Shown in pieces: positions 33,085 through 38,173 of a DNA stretch of 38,173 nucleotides (positions within the stretch are counted from its first letter, which is position 1; the number at the start of each line of letters is the position of its first letter). Made by a program: the position numbers and the translations under genes. The stretch is from Nostoc sp. FACHB-152. GTDB lineage: Bacteria > Cyanobacteriota > Cyanobacteriia > Cyanobacteriales > Nostocaceae. Location of the stretch: NCBI RefSeq assembly GCF_014697475.1, contig NZ_JACJRV010000071.1:1-38173 (forward strand), given 5' to 3'. Under the pieces are notes generated by a model. That model did not search any database. It saw nothing but the letters and a program-made list of their open reading frames with translations, and had not been told where the DNA came from.

Positions 33085-34047
33085 TTAGCTGACGCTGGTG
33101 ACTATCTTTGCTTCCAGGTCTTGGAATAACGGTGTACTTAAATACCTTTCTCCAAAACTGGGCTGAATCATCACAATTAAGCGTCCTTCGTTTTCTGGGC
33201 GTTGAGCGAGGCTAATGGCAGCACATAAAGCTGCGCCGCTGGAAATTCCAGATAATAGTCCTTCTTCTCTGGCTAACCGCCGACTATAAGCGATCGCATC
33301 TTCATCGTTGACGGTAATCACTTCATCAATGAACTTCATTTTCAGCACTTGGGGAATAAATCCCGCGCCTATCCCTTGGATTTTGTGCGCTCCTGGTTTT
33401 CCCCCAGATAAAACTGGACTATTAGCCGGCTCAACAGCGATCGCTTTAAAGCTCGGTTTGCGTGCTTTAATTACCTCTGCTACACCAGTGATCGTACCAC
33501 CTGTACCCACACCAGCGACAATCATATCTACCTGACCATCAGTATCTTCCCAAATTTCCTCGGCTGTAGTTTCCCGATGTATTTTGGCATTCGCCGGATT
33601 ACGAAACTGCTGCAACATATAGGAGTAGGGTGTACTATTAACTATTTCCTGAGCGCGTCGAATTGCGCCACCCATCCCTTCAATTCCGGGTGTAAGTTCT
33701 AATTCTGCCCCATAAGCCCGCAACATTGCCCGACGTTCTCCACTCATGGTGTCCGGCATCGTCAAAATTAAGCGATAACCCTTGGCTGCCGCTACCATTG
33801 CTAAGGCAATTCCAGTATTACCAGAAGTTGGTTCTACTAAAACTGTCTTTCCCGGAGAAATCAACCCCTCCTCTTCCGCCGCATTAATCATGCTAATCCC
33901 AATCCGGTCTTTAACTGATGCCGAGGGGTTCATACTTTCCAGTTTCACCACTATTTGTGCTAAACATCCCTCTTGCTGAGGAATGCGATTTAGTTGCACT
34001 AGCGGTGTACGGCCAACCAGTTCTGTAATATTACGAGCAATCCGCAT
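33085..34047 (-). CDS. cysK: cysteine synthase A
   Basis: This 320-residue PLP enzyme makes cysteine from O-acetylserine and sulfide. Motifs are the PLP Lys in [15 protein letters not shown] (about residue 46), the TSGNTG substrate/phosphate loop (74-79), [15 protein letters not shown] binding the cofactor phosphate, and SSGAA near the C-terminus. The start at 34047 is preferred over the ATG at 34053, because AAAGGA lies eight bases before the former and only two before the latter. It lies downstream of an Rrf2-type regulator and upstream of the dnaJ-domain gene on the same strand. Confidence 0.93.
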
Positions 34048-34053
34048 AATCAT

Positions 34054-34284
34054 ATTCCTTTGTTATCAGTCAATAGTCCATAGTTAAGAATAGGGTGTAG
34101 GAAAGACGGCATTGGTTGGGGCGTATGTTTCCTCCAGATGGTGCAATCGTCTTGAAAAGACGGGGCGGATGTTTCCCTAGGGTTGTTGGGGCTGTCTCTT
34201 CCCCTACCCCCCAAACCCCGCCCCAACGGGGCTTGGTCAAGAGTAAGCATAAAACACAAATGACCAATGACTAATGACTATTGA
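34054..34284. repeat. repeat-rich spacer between the Rrf2 gene and cysK
   Basis: It contains two related copies of GGGGCG(T/G)ATGTTTCC (34120-34136 and 34163-34178), a GC palindrome CCCCGCCCCAACGGGG near 34216-34231, and AATGACT-type heptameric short tandem repeats at about 34260-34287. No gene is supported. Such heptamers are the short tandemly repeated sequences (STRR) of Nostocales. Confidence 0.6.
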
Positions 34285-34722
34285 CTAAATGTAGTACATG
34301 ATATCTAACTGTTTTCGGGCATCTCTTTTTTCACAAAGATCCTGAAGCGTATAGTTTTGCAAAACAGAATTTGCAGCTTGACGTGCTTCTTGCCAAATTT
34401 CATCGACAACGGCACTGTCTACACTTTTGAGGCTGGCAGTTTCTTCGCTTACCTTTACATCTAAACCTTCCAAGCATTCTAAAACTTCATATATTGTAAT
34501 TTTCCACGGTTCCCGTGAGAGAAGATAGCCACCTTTAGAACCACGTTGGCTTTTGATGATCCCTCCACGTCTCAAAGTTGCCAACAGCTGTTCTAAATAG
34601 CGATCGGGTATACTTTGTTGAGCAGCGATTTGCCGAATTTGCATTGGTTCGCCATTGTCATAGTGAGTTGCCATTTCTATTAACGCAAGAATTGCGTACT
34701 CTGATTTACACGATAGTTCCAC
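34285..34722 (-). CDS. Rrf2-family transcriptional regulator, probable cysteine/sulfur regulator
   Basis: This 145-residue winged-helix regulator begins MELSCKSEYAILALIEMATH and has the recognition helix region RYLEQLLATLRRGGIIKSQRGSKGG (residues 42-66), the classical Rrf2 signature. The three-Cys iron-sulfur cluster set of IscR is absent: only isolated Cys residues remain, in LSCKS, LECLE and LCEK. This places it nearer CymR-type regulators that control cysteine synthesis. The next gene downstream on the same strand is cysK, which supports a role in sulfur metabolism. Regulation of cysK by this protein is inferred. Confidence 0.87.
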   Translation of the reverse strand: MELSCKSEYAILALIEMATHYDNGEPMQIRQIAAQQSIPDRYLEQLLATLRRGGIIKSQRGSKGGYLLSREPWKITIYEVLECLEGLDVKVSEETASLKSVDSAVVDEIWQEARQAANSVLQNYTLQDLCEKRDARKQLDIMYYI

Positions 34723-34949
34723 AGGCGGTAATTAAAAATAAAGGCTAAAGGATTTTTTTGGTACAGATGTTTTCGTAAACGCGTAGCGGGGAAACACCAC
34801 TGTCGTGTCACCCGTTAGCAAGCCTTCTCTCAAGGAGAGATGCTATATGAACGAATGTTAGAGGTTGCCACAGGCTAGGTTAGGCTAAAGGCTTACTTAT
34901 ATTAGTATACTCCGGTTAACTACTGGGGTTTGTTGATTGTTACTAATAA

Positions 34950-34980
34950 AGACAAAAAACCCCGCCTTTGGGCGGGGTTC
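34950..34980 (-). terminator. intrinsic terminator of the porin gene
   Basis: AACCCCGCC and GGCGGGGTT flank a 4-base loop at 34959-34979. On the minus strand it is followed by TTTTTTGTC, about 40 bases after the porin stop codon. A textbook intrinsic terminator. Confidence 0.9.
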
Positions 34981-35016
34981 AATTTAATTAAAAGTTATGT
35001 AAAGTCTTTCCAGGTT

Positions 35017-36768
35017 CTAGAATGTGAAGGTTGTGCGGAGAGTACCGATAATCGCATCATCGTTGTCGCTGTTTTGACCAGGAGAGGTCAACCAGATAAC
35101 ACCAGGAGTGATGGAAATATTATCAGACACGCGATACTTGTAGAAACCTTCGATTTGGTATGGTACGTCTCCACCGTTTCTGCCAGTAAAACCTGGACGG
35201 TTAAGTGCATAAGGAACTGCACCAGCGAAAATACCCAATACGTTACCTTGTTTACCAAAATCAGGTAAAGCTACACCAGCACCGTAAGACCAAGCTTCAA
35301 AATCATTGCCAGCACCTGTGGGAGTGACATCATGGTATGATACAAAGCCGCTAATTGACAATTTGTCGCTGGGTCTGAATGCAGCCGATATACCGTAAGA
35401 ATTACTGGAAGATGAGGTATCGAGTCTATTAGCTGCTTCAGTACCTACTAAAGCAACGTTATTCCCATTGAAACCACCTGCATCAAATAAGGAACTGCCT
35501 GCACCATTGTATCCATGAACATAGGTTGCAGCTAACGCTACGCGATCGCCAATACCAAAGTTCAATTGTCCTAAAGCAGCGTAGTTACCGTTGAACAGAC
35601 CTGAACCATCACTCGGAGTGTTAGCTTCCGATGACAAGTAACCTACAGTAATAGAGCTTGGTTTAATAATACTGCCGCCTTGACCAAAAGGTATGTTCAA
35701 AGCTATACCAGCACCACCACCAATCCGATAAATCGGGTTTTCTGACGAGAAGGTAGATAACGCGCCATTACCACCGTCAGTTTTGTCAAAGAAGTAAGGG
35801 TTGTTAACAGCAGTGTAATGACTGTGTTGTCCACCAGCAGCAGCTAAGTAAACTTGAGCTGGGCCGATGGGGGCTTCGTAAGTTAACCTGTCTATCTTGA
35901 CATTGTTAGTAGTTGAGCCACCATTAGCTTGGAAAGTTTGTAAACCTTCCCCGCTAAAACCACCGTTGATACCAGTACCAGTAGAGTCTTGGATGCTAAA
36001 GGGAGTGGTGTTACTAGCAGTCAGACGGGTAGTTAATACGTCTCTACCGGTGAAGCTGGTTTGCAAGCCTAAACGTACTCTGTCTTGGAATACGGTGTTG
36101 TTAGCATCACCTGTGTTGTCGCCAAACGCATCAGTTACTGCGAAAATTGCTTCACCGACTAATTTGGTGGTAGTAGAGAATTGGTTAGCTTCCAATTCAG
36201 CAGTGCGTGCTTCTAAAGCATCGACGCGACCACGCAAGGTTGCCAATTCAGCAGAGAATTCTTCTTGTAAACGCTGTAGGGTTGCTAAATCTTGCTTAGT
36301 TACCAAGTCAGCGGTCGCTGTAGCAATCAATTCGTTTACGCGATCTAAACAGGCGTTTAAACCAGCAGCGAATTCGTAACGGGTCAGAGCGCGGTTACCG
36401 CGATAAGTACCATTGGGATAACCAGCAATACATCCATATCGCTCAACCAAGGACTGCAATGCTTGGAATGCCCAGTCAGTAGGTTGTACGTCAGAGAACT
36501 GCGAAACCGATGTTACTTGACCTTGAGTAGCGTTGGTTTTGCCTTCGTTGCTGTAACGGTTAACTTGGTCTAAAACTTGAGTGTCGTTGTTAGCAGGGGC
36601 TGCTTGTGCCAAGATATCTGGCTGTACAACTTCTGCTGCAACAGTTTTTTCTGTTACTGAAACTTCAGTGGTTGCATTGGGAGCGGCCATTGCTGTTGCT
36701 GAAACGAGTAGGCTTGCTCCTAAGACTGCTGGGCTAACCACGAGTGATTTCCACAAGAGATTAGACAT
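35017..36768 (-). CDS. SLH-domain OprB-type outer membrane porin
   Basis: This 583-residue porin starts at the ATG at 36768 (MSNLLWKSLVV), chosen for the AGGAG nine bases upstream and the immediately following signal peptide (to about residue 28, AMAA). An SLH domain (about 90-150, FSDVQPTDWAFQALQSLVER, LTRYEFAAGLNACL) binds peptidoglycan-linked polymer. A coiled coil (about 155-200, LATLRGRVDALEARTAELEA) spans the periplasm, and an OprB-type beta barrel ends in the aromatic residue F of LRTTFTF. This is the main cyanobacterial porin type (Som family), which passes ions and small solutes. From memory, Anabaena 7120 has a similar porin close to a pterin dehydratase and psbD, matching this gene order. 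Confidence 0.92.
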   Translation of the reverse strand: MSNLLWKSLVVSPAVLGASLLVSATAMAAPNATTEVSVTEKTVAAEVVQPDILAQAAPANNDTQVLDQVNRYSNEGKTNATQGQVTSVSQFSDVQPTDWAFQALQSLVERYGCIAGYPNGTYRGNRALTRYEFAAGLNACLDRVNELIATATADLVTKQDLATLQRLQEEFSAELATLRGRVDALEARTAELEANQFSTTTKLVGEAIFAVTDAFGDNTGDANNTVFQDRVRLGLQTSFTGRDVLTTRLTASNTTPFSIQDSTGTGINGGFSGEGLQTFQANGGSTTNNVKIDRLTYEAPIGPAQVYLAAAGGQHSHYTAVNNPYFFDKTDGGNGALSTFSSENPIYRIGGGAGIALNIPFGQGGSIIKPSSITVGYLSSEANTPSDGSGLFNGNYAALGQLNFGIGDRVALAATYVHGYNGAGSSLFDAGGFNGNNVALVGTEAANRLDTSSSSNSYGISAAFRPSDKLSISGFVSYHDVTPTGAGNDFEAWSYGAGVALPDFGKQGNVLGIFAGAVPYALNRPGFTGRNGGDVPYQIEGFYKYRVSDNISITPGVIWLTSPGQNSDNDDAIIGTLRTTFTF

Positions 36769-37119
36769 TTTTACTTTTCTCCTCACACCTTGTATAGAGA
36801 ATTGTTTTCGTAGCACTTACTCTCAAACATACGACATCTTGTTGAAATCTTGTAATGAGGTATGGTGCAACTAATACAATTTTAGTTTTCGCAAAGCTAA
36901 TATCTAATTAACTTAGTGTTAAAAATGATGTAATTAACTTATGCAAAAAACATAGCTTCATAGCTTATTATTATAGAGCAATAACACAACATAACAACGT
37001 AATTGCGATCGGCTGTTAAACTGTCACATCACAACCTCAGTCTAGCCAGGACAAGAGTAGGGTTGAGAGTATTTATAATTTCCTACTTAGCACTATTCAT
37101 TGCAATCTGCCCCAGAATT
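36769..37119. other. porin upstream region with a possible promoter
   Basis: No gene is present. On the minus strand TTGTTA (36992-36997) and TATAAT (36970-36975) are 16 bases apart and would give a roughly 200-base porin leader. The leader is AT-rich, without a clear stable structure. A long leader is plausible for a highly expressed porin. Confidence 0.4.
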
Positions 37120-37401
37120 TCAACTAATTTGAGAAATTACGGCTGCTAGGTCAAAATCATTTTGGGTTAAACCACCAGCATCGTGAGTTGTAAGGGTAAT
37201 TGTGACTTTGTTATAAGAAATTTCTATATCTGGATGATGACCAGCGGATTCAGCAGGTTCTACCAACTTATTAACAAATTCAATTGCTGCAACAAAATCT
37301 TTAAACTTACGAGTGGTTTGCAACTTGTTGCCTTCAACAGCCCACCCTGACAGAGTATTCGTCCGTTCTTGAATTTCTGCGTCAGTCAGTAGTTGTGTCA
37401 T
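37120..37401 (-). CDS. phhB: pterin-4a-carbinolamine dehydratase
   Basis: From the ATG at 37401 (MTQLLTDAEIQE) this is a 93-residue protein, the usual length. Codons further upstream stay open to 37545 but add non-family sequence. Conserved features are the central FKDFVAAIEFVNKL helix, the catalytic AGHHPDIEISYNKVTITLTTH block and the C-terminal GLTQNDFDLA. The enzyme dehydrates 4a-hydroxytetrahydropterin to recycle the pterin cofactor. In cyanobacteria, which lack a clear phenylalanine hydroxylase partner, its role is unsettled; it may support molybdopterin or other pterin chemistry. It stands between the porin and psbD on the same strand. Confidence 0.9.
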   Translation of the reverse strand: MTQLLTDAEIQERTNTLSGWAVEGNKLQTTRKFKDFVAAIEFVNKLVEPAESAGHHPDIEISYNKVTITLTTHDAGGLTQNDFDLAAVISQIS

Positions 37402-37623
37402 ACCACAAAATCCCGATTTATATTTTTTTGAGTAATCTAAAATATTTGAGTTAAAACAACTAGGCTCTATTTTTTGTAAGTTAGTCTCTATGATGAAAAG
37501 TTTTGCACTGCTGAAGTCAAAGCTTTTTGGAATGAACTTCATCACGTCAACAAGCTACTATATATATTTATGCAATAAGCCCGCTGTTAAAAGCTCAAGG
37601 TAGATTTAATTCTAATTATTATA

Positions 37624-37674
37624 CAAAAAACTATCCGCTCTGATGTTAGATCAGTTGATCTAATATCAGAGCGG
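37624..37674 (-). terminator. strong intrinsic terminator of the structured RNA
   Basis: On the minus strand a 19-bp nearly perfect stem (CCGCTCTGAT...ATCAGAGCGG) with a 2-base apparent loop is followed by TAGTTTTTTG. It ends the transcript that includes the short reading frame at 37778-37849. Confidence 0.85.
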
Positions 37675-37680
37675 TCTAGC

Positions 37681-37826
37681 GGGTCTTCAGGTTGCAACCA
37701 GACTGCCGGGAGGAACTCCCAGCTTTGCCTAGCTAATTGAGATAACTATAGTTTCTCAATTTAACTAAGGCTAACTTTTAGAGAACAGCCCCGGCGCGCA
37801 GCCGGCTAACTGCAACCTGATGACCC
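37681..37826 (-). ncRNA. multi-branched structured RNA (four-way-junction-like), candidate attenuator or regulatory RNA
   Basis: Minus-strand 5' arm 37826-37811 (GGGTCATCAGGTTGCA) pairs with 3' arm 37696-37681 (TGCAACCTGAAGACCC), 15 of 16 positions. The 114 enclosed bases form three separate hairpins: 37807-37787 (CCGGC/GCCGG core), 37771-37727 (GCCTTAG...ATTGAGA with TCTCAAT...CTAGGC) and 37723-37705 (GCTGGGAG/CTCCCGGC, 3-base loop). A terminator follows at 37674-37624. The 5' arm lies inside the 23-codon frame. The structure is read directly from base complementarity; its function is inferred and it matches no RNA family I know. Confidence 0.6.
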
Positions 37827-37849
37827 ATGCGTTTACTACTTTCTATCAT
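37778..37849 (-). CDS. 23-residue leader-like peptide behind a perfect Shine-Dalgarno sequence
   Basis: The ATG at 37849 is preceded, with 8 bases spacing, by AAGGAGGTGAT (37854-37864), fully complementary to the 16S rRNA tail. The peptide begins MIESSKRMGH and ends VSRLRAGAVL; it is basic and not hydrophobic. A second in-frame ATG lies two codons upstream (37855). Codons 9-13 coincide with the 5' arm of the long-range stem at 37811-37826, so a translating ribosome would open that stem. This suggests a regulatory leader peptide or a dual-function RNA. It is too short to judge by homology. Confidence 0.5.
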   Translation of the reverse strand: MIESSKRMGHQVAVSRLRAGAVL

Positions 37850-37894
37850 GGGCATCACCTCCTTGTTGCCTAAGCGGTCTTAGTTTCAAAAAGG

Positions 37895-37910
37895 CAGAGT
37901 AATTACTCTG
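37895..37910. promoter_or_regulatory. perfect 16-bp palindrome upstream of the leader frame
   Basis: CAGAGTAATTACTCTG is perfectly symmetric. On the minus strand it lies within AAAGCCCAGAG...CTCTGCCTTTTTG, so it may be an operator or a terminator-like hairpin in front of the small reading frame. Confidence 0.5.
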
Positions 37911-37960
37911 GGCTTTAACCTTCAATCAATATAACATATGAATTCTAGAAATGAAATGTA

Positions 37961-37992
37961 AATAAAAAATCCTCCACTCAAAAGCGGAGGAT
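37961..37992 (-). terminator. intrinsic terminator of psbD
   Basis: ATCCTCCGCTTTTGAGTGGAGGAT on the minus strand pairs through ATCCTCC/GGAGGAT and continues as TTTTTTATTT, 50 bases after the psbD stop codon. Confidence 0.85.
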
Positions 37993-38041
37993 GGATCAAA
38001 GATGGGGGAATGATGAATCTTAAATTACGAATTCACCAAGT

Positions 38042-38173
<132 letters not shown>

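Follow-up and report, generated by a model that had tools for sequence, protein, structure and literature searches.

Organization of the locus

The window (the whole stretch of DNA analysed, 38,173 nt, from Nostoc sp. FACHB-152) contains on its minus strand a predicted stand-alone RNA gene at about 37936-37625 (Table 1). It is preceded by the C-terminal part of psbD, a 43-aa piece for which Pfam gave no match, and is followed on the same strand by genes for a pterin-4a-carbinolamine dehydratase, an SLH/OprB porin, an Rrf2 regulator and a PLP-dependent enzyme, in this order. The RNA, the pterin dehydratase, the porin, the Rrf2 gene and a cysteine-synthase-like gene (33085-37401) form a one-strand set that recurs in many of the fetched loci.

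Table 1. Features of the RNA gene and of its surroundings in the window
Feature	Position	Strand	Evidence or detail
psbD (D2) C-terminus, upstream neighbour, outside the RNA	38042..38173	-	E 6.6e-24
Terminator-like hairpin between psbD and the RNA gene	37969..37992	-	
Extended -10 promoter TGTTATATT	37928..37936	-	consensus TGTGtTATatT, 90 aligned family sequences
Palindrome CAGAGTAATTACTCTG	37895..37910	-	16 nt; 6-bp stem in the fold
Shine-Dalgarno AAGGAGGTGAT	37854..37864	-	full-length 11-mer
23-codon ORF and stop MIESSKRMGHQVAVSRLRAGAVL	37778..37849	-	ATG at 37849, TAA ending at 37778
P1 5' arm, last base of codon 8 through codon 13	37811..37826	-	covariation
P1b 5' arm CCGGCU	37800..37805	-	covariation
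4-nt bulge with codon 18 (stop in six divergent relatives)	37796..37799	-	
P2 5' arm GCCGGGG, codons 19, 20 and first base of 21	37789..37795	-	covariation
P2b 5' arm CUCU, end of ORF	37780..37783	-	covariation
P2b 3' arm GGAG	37716..37719	-	covariation
P2 3' arm UCCCGGC	37705..37711	-	covariation
P1b 3' arm AGUCUGG	37698..37704	-	covariation
P1 3' arm	37681..37696	-	covariation
Terminator hairpin CUAGACCGCUC...GAGCGGAUAG and U run	37625..37679	-	complementary arms; compensated pair
Pterin-4a-carbinolamine dehydratase, downstream neighbour, outside the RNA	37120..37401	-	PF01329
SLH/OprB porin, second downstream neighbour, outside the RNA	35017..36768	-	PF04966 and PF00395

The main elements of the original prediction, namely a 23-codon frame with a perfect Shine-Dalgarno sequence, a long-range stem and a strong terminator, were all recovered, and the minus-strand element is real. 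Transcription is expected to start near position 37921, downstream of an extended -10 promoter (in the consensus, capitals mark at least 90% and small letters at least 60% agreement; 30 rows of the alignment are displayed). Just past this position lies the palindrome, probably a 5' hairpin, for which a length of 16 bp had been proposed; it is present at 37910-37895, but 16 nt is its total length and a stem of six base pairs is formed. The palindrome was seen in most of the 30 displayed family rows and was not evident in many other lineages.

The Shine-Dalgarno 11-mer occurs four times in the genome of the strain, and the copy in the RNA gene is the only one with an ATG within 15 bases downstream. 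One of the four resembles what we take to be the 3' end of 16S rRNA, on the opposite strand. The sequence GGAGGTGATG is invariant in the alignment A1 described below, the members of which were selected by a pattern containing it. A second in-frame ATG (ATG CCC ATG, 37847-37855) overlaps the Shine-Dalgarno sequence, so that a 25-residue product is also possible. This upstream ATG is found in 190 of 190 pattern-selected loci by construction of the pattern, and in L230 and L243 (family f28) a GTG takes its place. The motifs CCCAUG and CAUGGG around the start codon (37852-37824), of which CCCA/UGGG are nearly invariant, could form a hairpin competing with the first bases of P1.

The window gave no family match at gathering score with Rfam 15, and the nine Rfam hits with E<=10 in 37560-38020 were all under their gathering scores. 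Neither ARAGORN nor Rfam gave a tRNA or tmRNA match.

Distribution of the RNA gene

Conservation in related genomes, on which the original prediction had staked its case, was extensive. With a 301-nt query, blastn gave matches in 136 of the 145 family genomes and in 279 of 388 class genomes, mostly one per genome; in distant genomes, two matches frequently appear to be fragments of a single copy. The covariance model R1, built from 60 sequences, matched 276 of the 388 class genomes (at least 90% completeness, strict filters), with one match per genome and two exceptions among the matches listed. On 32 hand-picked divergent or negative genomes, 27 matched R1 at E 5.6e-9 or better; three others, with matches at E 0.24-0.54, were left uncounted, and two had no match. 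In a phylum-wide draw under strict filters R1 matched 95 of 292 genomes, and the single match outside the class (G638) was weak (E 4.8e-4). An exact-pattern scan of named genomes yielded at least 115 loci, and the 80 loci listed were all cyanobacterial by title. No homolog was matched in plasmid and phage records, and the exact pattern had no match in viral contigs.

Among the 20 unmatched class genomes listed (92 further ones are unmatched), 11 belong to families f16 and f31 and nine to f1, f6, f8, f17 and f30. The unmatched f16 genomes measure 1.7-2.6 Mb, and a different f31 genus does match (G218). Family f28, with one-contig genomes of 4.7 Mb, carries the RNA. In two genomes of genus g14, within the family of the window (G013 and G062), the RNA was found by neither blastn nor the covariance model, possibly reflecting a lineage-specific loss. 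Several draft contigs, those of L002, L004, L005, L012 and L015 among them, end ~300 bases upstream of the RNA, perhaps due to duplication of psbD breaking the assemblies.

Conserved secondary structure

The RNA region folds far better than its shuffled versions (z -8.61; 0 of 200 as good). The long-range stem between 37826-37811 and 37696-37681 is 94% complementary (15 of 16 positions), in agreement with the predicted 16-bp stem whose 5' arm lies in the ORF; the placement of codons 9-13 in this stem held in substance, the arm starting one base earlier. Covariation indicates that the conserved fold continues from this stem as one long irregular helix, P1-P1b-P2-P2b.

In alignment A1 (60 of 64 sequences, with L092, L117, L121 and L110 left out; 9 of 73 failed the tail pattern), standard pairs occupied 94.8% of the cells of P1, P1b, P2 and P2b. 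Covariation was the other point on which the prediction had been staked: changes on both sides occurred in 16 pairs of the helix and in 122 cells. Shuffles gave 30.1 such cells, with 0 of 500 reaching the observed count, and no slid control exceeded 17. In alignment A2, comprising 83 sequences including divergent families, 253 two-sided changes were counted against 55.4 in shuffles and at most 41 in slid controls; as A2 was fitted to the covariance model, this count calls for caution. P2 links codons 19-21 to the 3' UUCCGGCAG, and its third pair in A1 is C-G in 53 sequences, U-A in 6, U-G in 1 and unpaired in 0. As read from the sequence of L236 (CCUAGGAU/AUCCUAG), P2 is rewritten on both sides even past the stop codon.

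The covarying fold lies 1.8 kcal/mol above the minimum in the 214-nt core of the window sequence, and the P2 fold is at most 0.5 kcal/mol from the minimum in 42 of 60 sequences. The three hairpins originally proposed within the stem belong to the minimum-energy fold of this single sequence (four hairpins there); the covarying fold has P1b, P2 and P2b instead. Two of the minimum-energy hairpins were considered as conserved elements and rejected, their signals being weak, not zero. Hairpin A (CCGGC-UGCGC-GCCGG) was paired in 96.3% of cells compared to 95.6% in shuffles, with three two-sided cells (shuffle mean 0.7; 10 of 500 as high); these fell in a single pair, the 3' base of which is also used by P2. 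Hairpin C (GCUGGGAG-UUC-CUCCCGGC) was paired in 65.8% of cells, with three two-sided cells in three pairs (3 of 500 shuffles as high by pairs, 29 of 500 by cells), and slid versions equalled this count. Sequestration of the Shine-Dalgarno sequence by a 5' pyrimidine tract, apparent in the window sequence, was rejected as a general feature: over 64 sequences the pairing of GGAGG was 0.611 compared to 0.682 with shuffled leaders, i.e., it was less paired.

The terminator consists of two 19-nt arms (37674-37656 and 37653-37635) of 95% complementarity followed by a U run. Its pair next to CCGC/GCGG is U-A in 47, C-G in 14, U-G in 1 and G-C in 1 of 63 sequences. An internal loop, CUA-[G/C]A-CCGC with GCGG-A-UAG (37679-37631), is kept in 63 of 65 non-redundant sequences picked for a GCGGAT[A/G]G tail and drawn from the 179 of 190 loci with a recognisable tail. 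Since plain terminators need no such loop, it may bind something. In the Pseudanabaena loci, L069 and L148, reading of the sequences revealed unrelated hairpins in place of the conserved terminator.

Retention of the reading frame

The ORF has 22-24 codons in the 190 loci selected by the ATG-containing pattern. Under a looser rule, requiring GGAGG and a start codon, it has 22-26 codons in 231 and 17 codons in 4 of 235 loci (not deduplicated), and every start proved to be ATG. Twenty of 255 loci did not fit the start-to-motif pattern; 14 were read individually, and the other six were weak hits (L249-L251) or loci from the Shine-Dalgarno pattern (L252-L254). The distance from the ATG to the CUG motif is 45, 48 or 51 nt, i.e., in one frame, in 233 of the 235 loci, and 47 nt in two (L240 and L241, family f43), where the ORFs still have 24 and 23 codons. 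Both distinct indels within the ORF are multiples of three, compared to 30 of 104 beyond it. The stop codon is TAA in 156, TAG in 78 and TGA in 1 of the 235 loci.

The pattern of variation differs along the ORF. In codons 9-23 the third positions are the most variable (0.64 bits compared to 0.39 and 0.57), and AGAVL at the C-terminus is not easily disentangled from P2. Codons 2-8 lie outside the helix, and there the third positions are the least variable (0.53 compared to 0.80 and 0.70 bits); where the fold does not interfere, the signature usually left by selection on a protein is thus missing. As judged from these comparisons, the reading frame is held and the N-terminal peptide sequence is held loosely, and the peptide itself may not matter. 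Pfam and NCBIfam gave no match for the peptide, and its sequence strings were not found in the literature searched. No entry in the available part of the list of small Synechocystis ORFs in PMC5126843 (shortest 26 aa) was equated with the ORF.

Divergent loci carry variants of both the frame and the fold. In L223, L225, L227, L236, L237 and L244 (families f40, f26 and f42), a UAG or UGA replaces codon 18, leaving 17 codons. In all six relatives, from three families, this stop falls exactly at the 4-nt bulge between P1b and P2. On A2 these loci form 27/30, 26/30, 28/31, 25/27, 20/28 and 27/31 helix pairs, respectively. The f37 loci L245-L248 are weak R1 matches (E 3.2e-12 to 5.6e-9, three of the four over 56-67 nt), and in none of them does the P2 3' motif or the usual tail appear within 300 bases. 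A stretch complementary to the P1 arm is still present downstream in L245 and L247 (4 of 200 and 0 of 200 shuffles as good); L246 and L248 have no P1 partner (146 of 200 and 116 of 200 as good). Their ORFs measure 23 (L245), 28 (L246, GTG start), 23 (L247) and 23 codons (L248). The ORF and the fold thus look like partly separable modules. The separation is clean only in L246 and L248, as L237 forms just 20 of 28 pairs and a P1-like complement is retained in L245 and L247.

These observations bear on two rival explanations. The first, that the RNA is purely non-coding and the ORF a by-product of conserved bases, would account for the very high base conservation within the ORF and for the absence of a third-position excess in codons 2-8. 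We regard it as very improbable, as the indels in the ORF preserve the frame (these are few), the f43 loci have a full ORF with the motif off by one, and L246 and L248 have ORFs without the fold. The second, that the transcript is a structured mRNA only, with the micropeptide as its product and the helix merely tuning translation or protecting the message, is a real possibility that we nevertheless consider on balance doubtful. The very strong ribosome-binding site, the retention of the frame and the ORFs of L246 and L248, which persist without P1 partner, P2 motif and tail, speak for it; the compensatory change that keeps P2 past the stop codon in 17-codon lineages, and again the lack of third-position excess in codons 2-8, are at odds with it.

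Genomic context and cis-regulation

The neighbours of the RNA gene were counted in 173 unique loci out of 190, a Nostocales-rich set picked by a pattern requiring GGTGATG.CCATG or like; neighbours assigned by ORF clusters are mechanical ORFs. psbD lies upstream in 39 of the 99 loci with enough sequence (38 by ORF clusters), so the RNA is not a psbD element. The other upstream neighbours are presumably nadC-, cobB- and clcA-like genes and others, and in Pseudanabaena the downstream gene is one we take to be ychF. By tblastn, the porin was found downstream in 56, the pterin dehydratase in 47 and neither in 21 of 85 loci; counting by ORF clusters gave 55, 43 and 22. Among mechanical ORFs of at least 90 aa, the first one is co-directional in 73 and on the opposite strand in 12 of the 85; nine of these 12 have neither porin nor dehydratase and three have one of them further on.

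Such a context could suit regulation in cis, with the RNA serving the pterin dehydratase-porin genes as a leader or attenuator in which passage of the ribosome alters read-through of the terminator. The same-strand porin and dehydratase, the mostly co-directional first ORF, and the leader-like ORF within a long stem ahead of a terminator all fit this explanation, and a slight signal was obtained for the start of the pterin dehydratase gene in an RNA duplex test (mean z -0.61 +/- 0.24, n 23). It is nonetheless quite improbable in our judgement. The constant co-directional downstream target that a cis attenuator needs was not found across the 85 loci, given the 21 with neither gene and the 12 with an opposite-strand first ORF, even if three of the latter have porin or dehydratase further on. 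Moreover, unrelated hairpins replace the terminator in several loci, and no antiterminator pairing was recognised on reading of the sequences. For the start of the porin gene the duplex test gave no signal (mean z -0.10 +/- 0.18, n 29), and base pairing there was rejected.

No known riboswitch aptamer was found at the Rfam threshold, and the downstream gene is variable. Because 21 of 85 loci have neither downstream gene, an obligate attenuator or riboswitch appears unlikely; a local role still has room, since the porin and the dehydratase are present in 56 and 47 of the 85. Thus, of the three interpretations originally offered, an independent dual-function small RNA fits best, while an attenuator, or a riboswitch for the pterin dehydratase gene, is unsupported as a general role.

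A proposed dual-function RNA

Comparative analysis of the sequences establishes promoter-like and ribosome-binding-like signals, retention of the frame, covariation of the helix and the lack of a fixed neighbour. The bulge stop in three families, together with the persistence of ORFs where the helix is partly or wholly lost, suggests two functions. The reading we prefer, to which we give an even chance, is that of an independent, nearly always single-copy gene for a dual-function RNA that can be either translated or folded, but not both at once. Acting as an mRNA, the transcript would give rise to a micropeptide of about 23 residues, with translation starting from its very strong ribosome-binding site. 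In its folded form it would adopt the long irregular P1-P1b-P2-P2b helix, with a variable apical arm at the tip and its own terminator following. Because codons 8-23 form the 5' arm of the helix, the two states should exclude each other: a ribosome on these codons would have to melt P1, P1b and P2. The RNA would therefore switch between a coding and a folded state, the latter probably trans-acting or protein-binding.

In a further, tentative and fairly unlikely reading, the RNA would be a translation-gated switch: selection would act on the translation of about 17-23 codons as such, and not on the peptide. Ribosome entry at the full-length Shine-Dalgarno sequence would open an ancient helix, and the folded state would report translational activity and act elsewhere in the cell. 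If so, the bulge stop at codon 18 and the loosely held N-terminal peptide would follow.

Since the RNA is kept nearly always in single copy in 276 of 388 class genomes, deep families included, it should do something basic. The natural variants, i.e., the 17-codon ORF with the helix and the ORF without P2 and sometimes without P1, are ready mutants separating peptide from RNA function.

Relation to known systems

The RNA had been proposed as undescribed, which is very probably wrong. It is very probably the Nostoc homolog of ncl0160, an identification made from the description of that RNA and not from its published alignment. ncl0160, first seen in Synechocystis 6803, was found from the transcription start sites of Nostoc sp. 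PCC 7120 (Brenes-Alvarez et al., 2016; PMC4734099). According to the passages of that paper available to us, it has 83 homologs with a conserved peptide of 23-25 aa and a possible ribosome-binding site always upstream; their stop codons are TAA in 47, TAG in 34 and TGA in 2, the marine Prochlorococcus/Synechococcus lineage was excluded, and the alignment and the predicted secondary structure of the Nostoc homolog are given in Figures S1 and S2.

The two RNAs thus agree in being widely conserved cyanobacterial sRNAs with a short peptide, a ribosome-binding site and the stop codon order TAA > TAG > TGA. In the present set, 231 of 235 loci, chosen with an ATG and GGAGG, have an ORF of about this size (22-26 codons), and most of the class genomes examined (276 of 388) carry the RNA. 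The transcript and its predicted peptide are therefore very probably already in print, and if the identity holds, the start-site data in the passages of PMC4734099 show the transcript. The 17-codon variants and an analysis of neighbours are absent from these passages. In the literature searched, the name ncl0160 was found in PMC4734099 alone. No stated function for the RNA was recognised in that literature, which consisted mostly of listings and the openings of abstracts, and the passages it offered contained neither 17-codon variants nor ORFs without P2.

Among RNAs with a coding and a regulatory part, RNAIII of Staphylococcus aureus likewise carries a short ORF within a highly folded regulatory RNA; in the cyanobacterial RNA, the ORF doubles as an arm of the conserved helix. 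SgrS, SR1 and other dual-function sRNAs are also small transcripts with an ORF and a candidate regulatory part, but in the cyanobacterial RNA the ORF and the helix overlap. With the leader-peptide attenuators trpL and tnaC it shares a short ORF with codons pairing to downstream RNA ahead of a terminator; it differs from them in lacking a constant downstream gene and a recognised antiterminator, and in having an exchangeable terminator.
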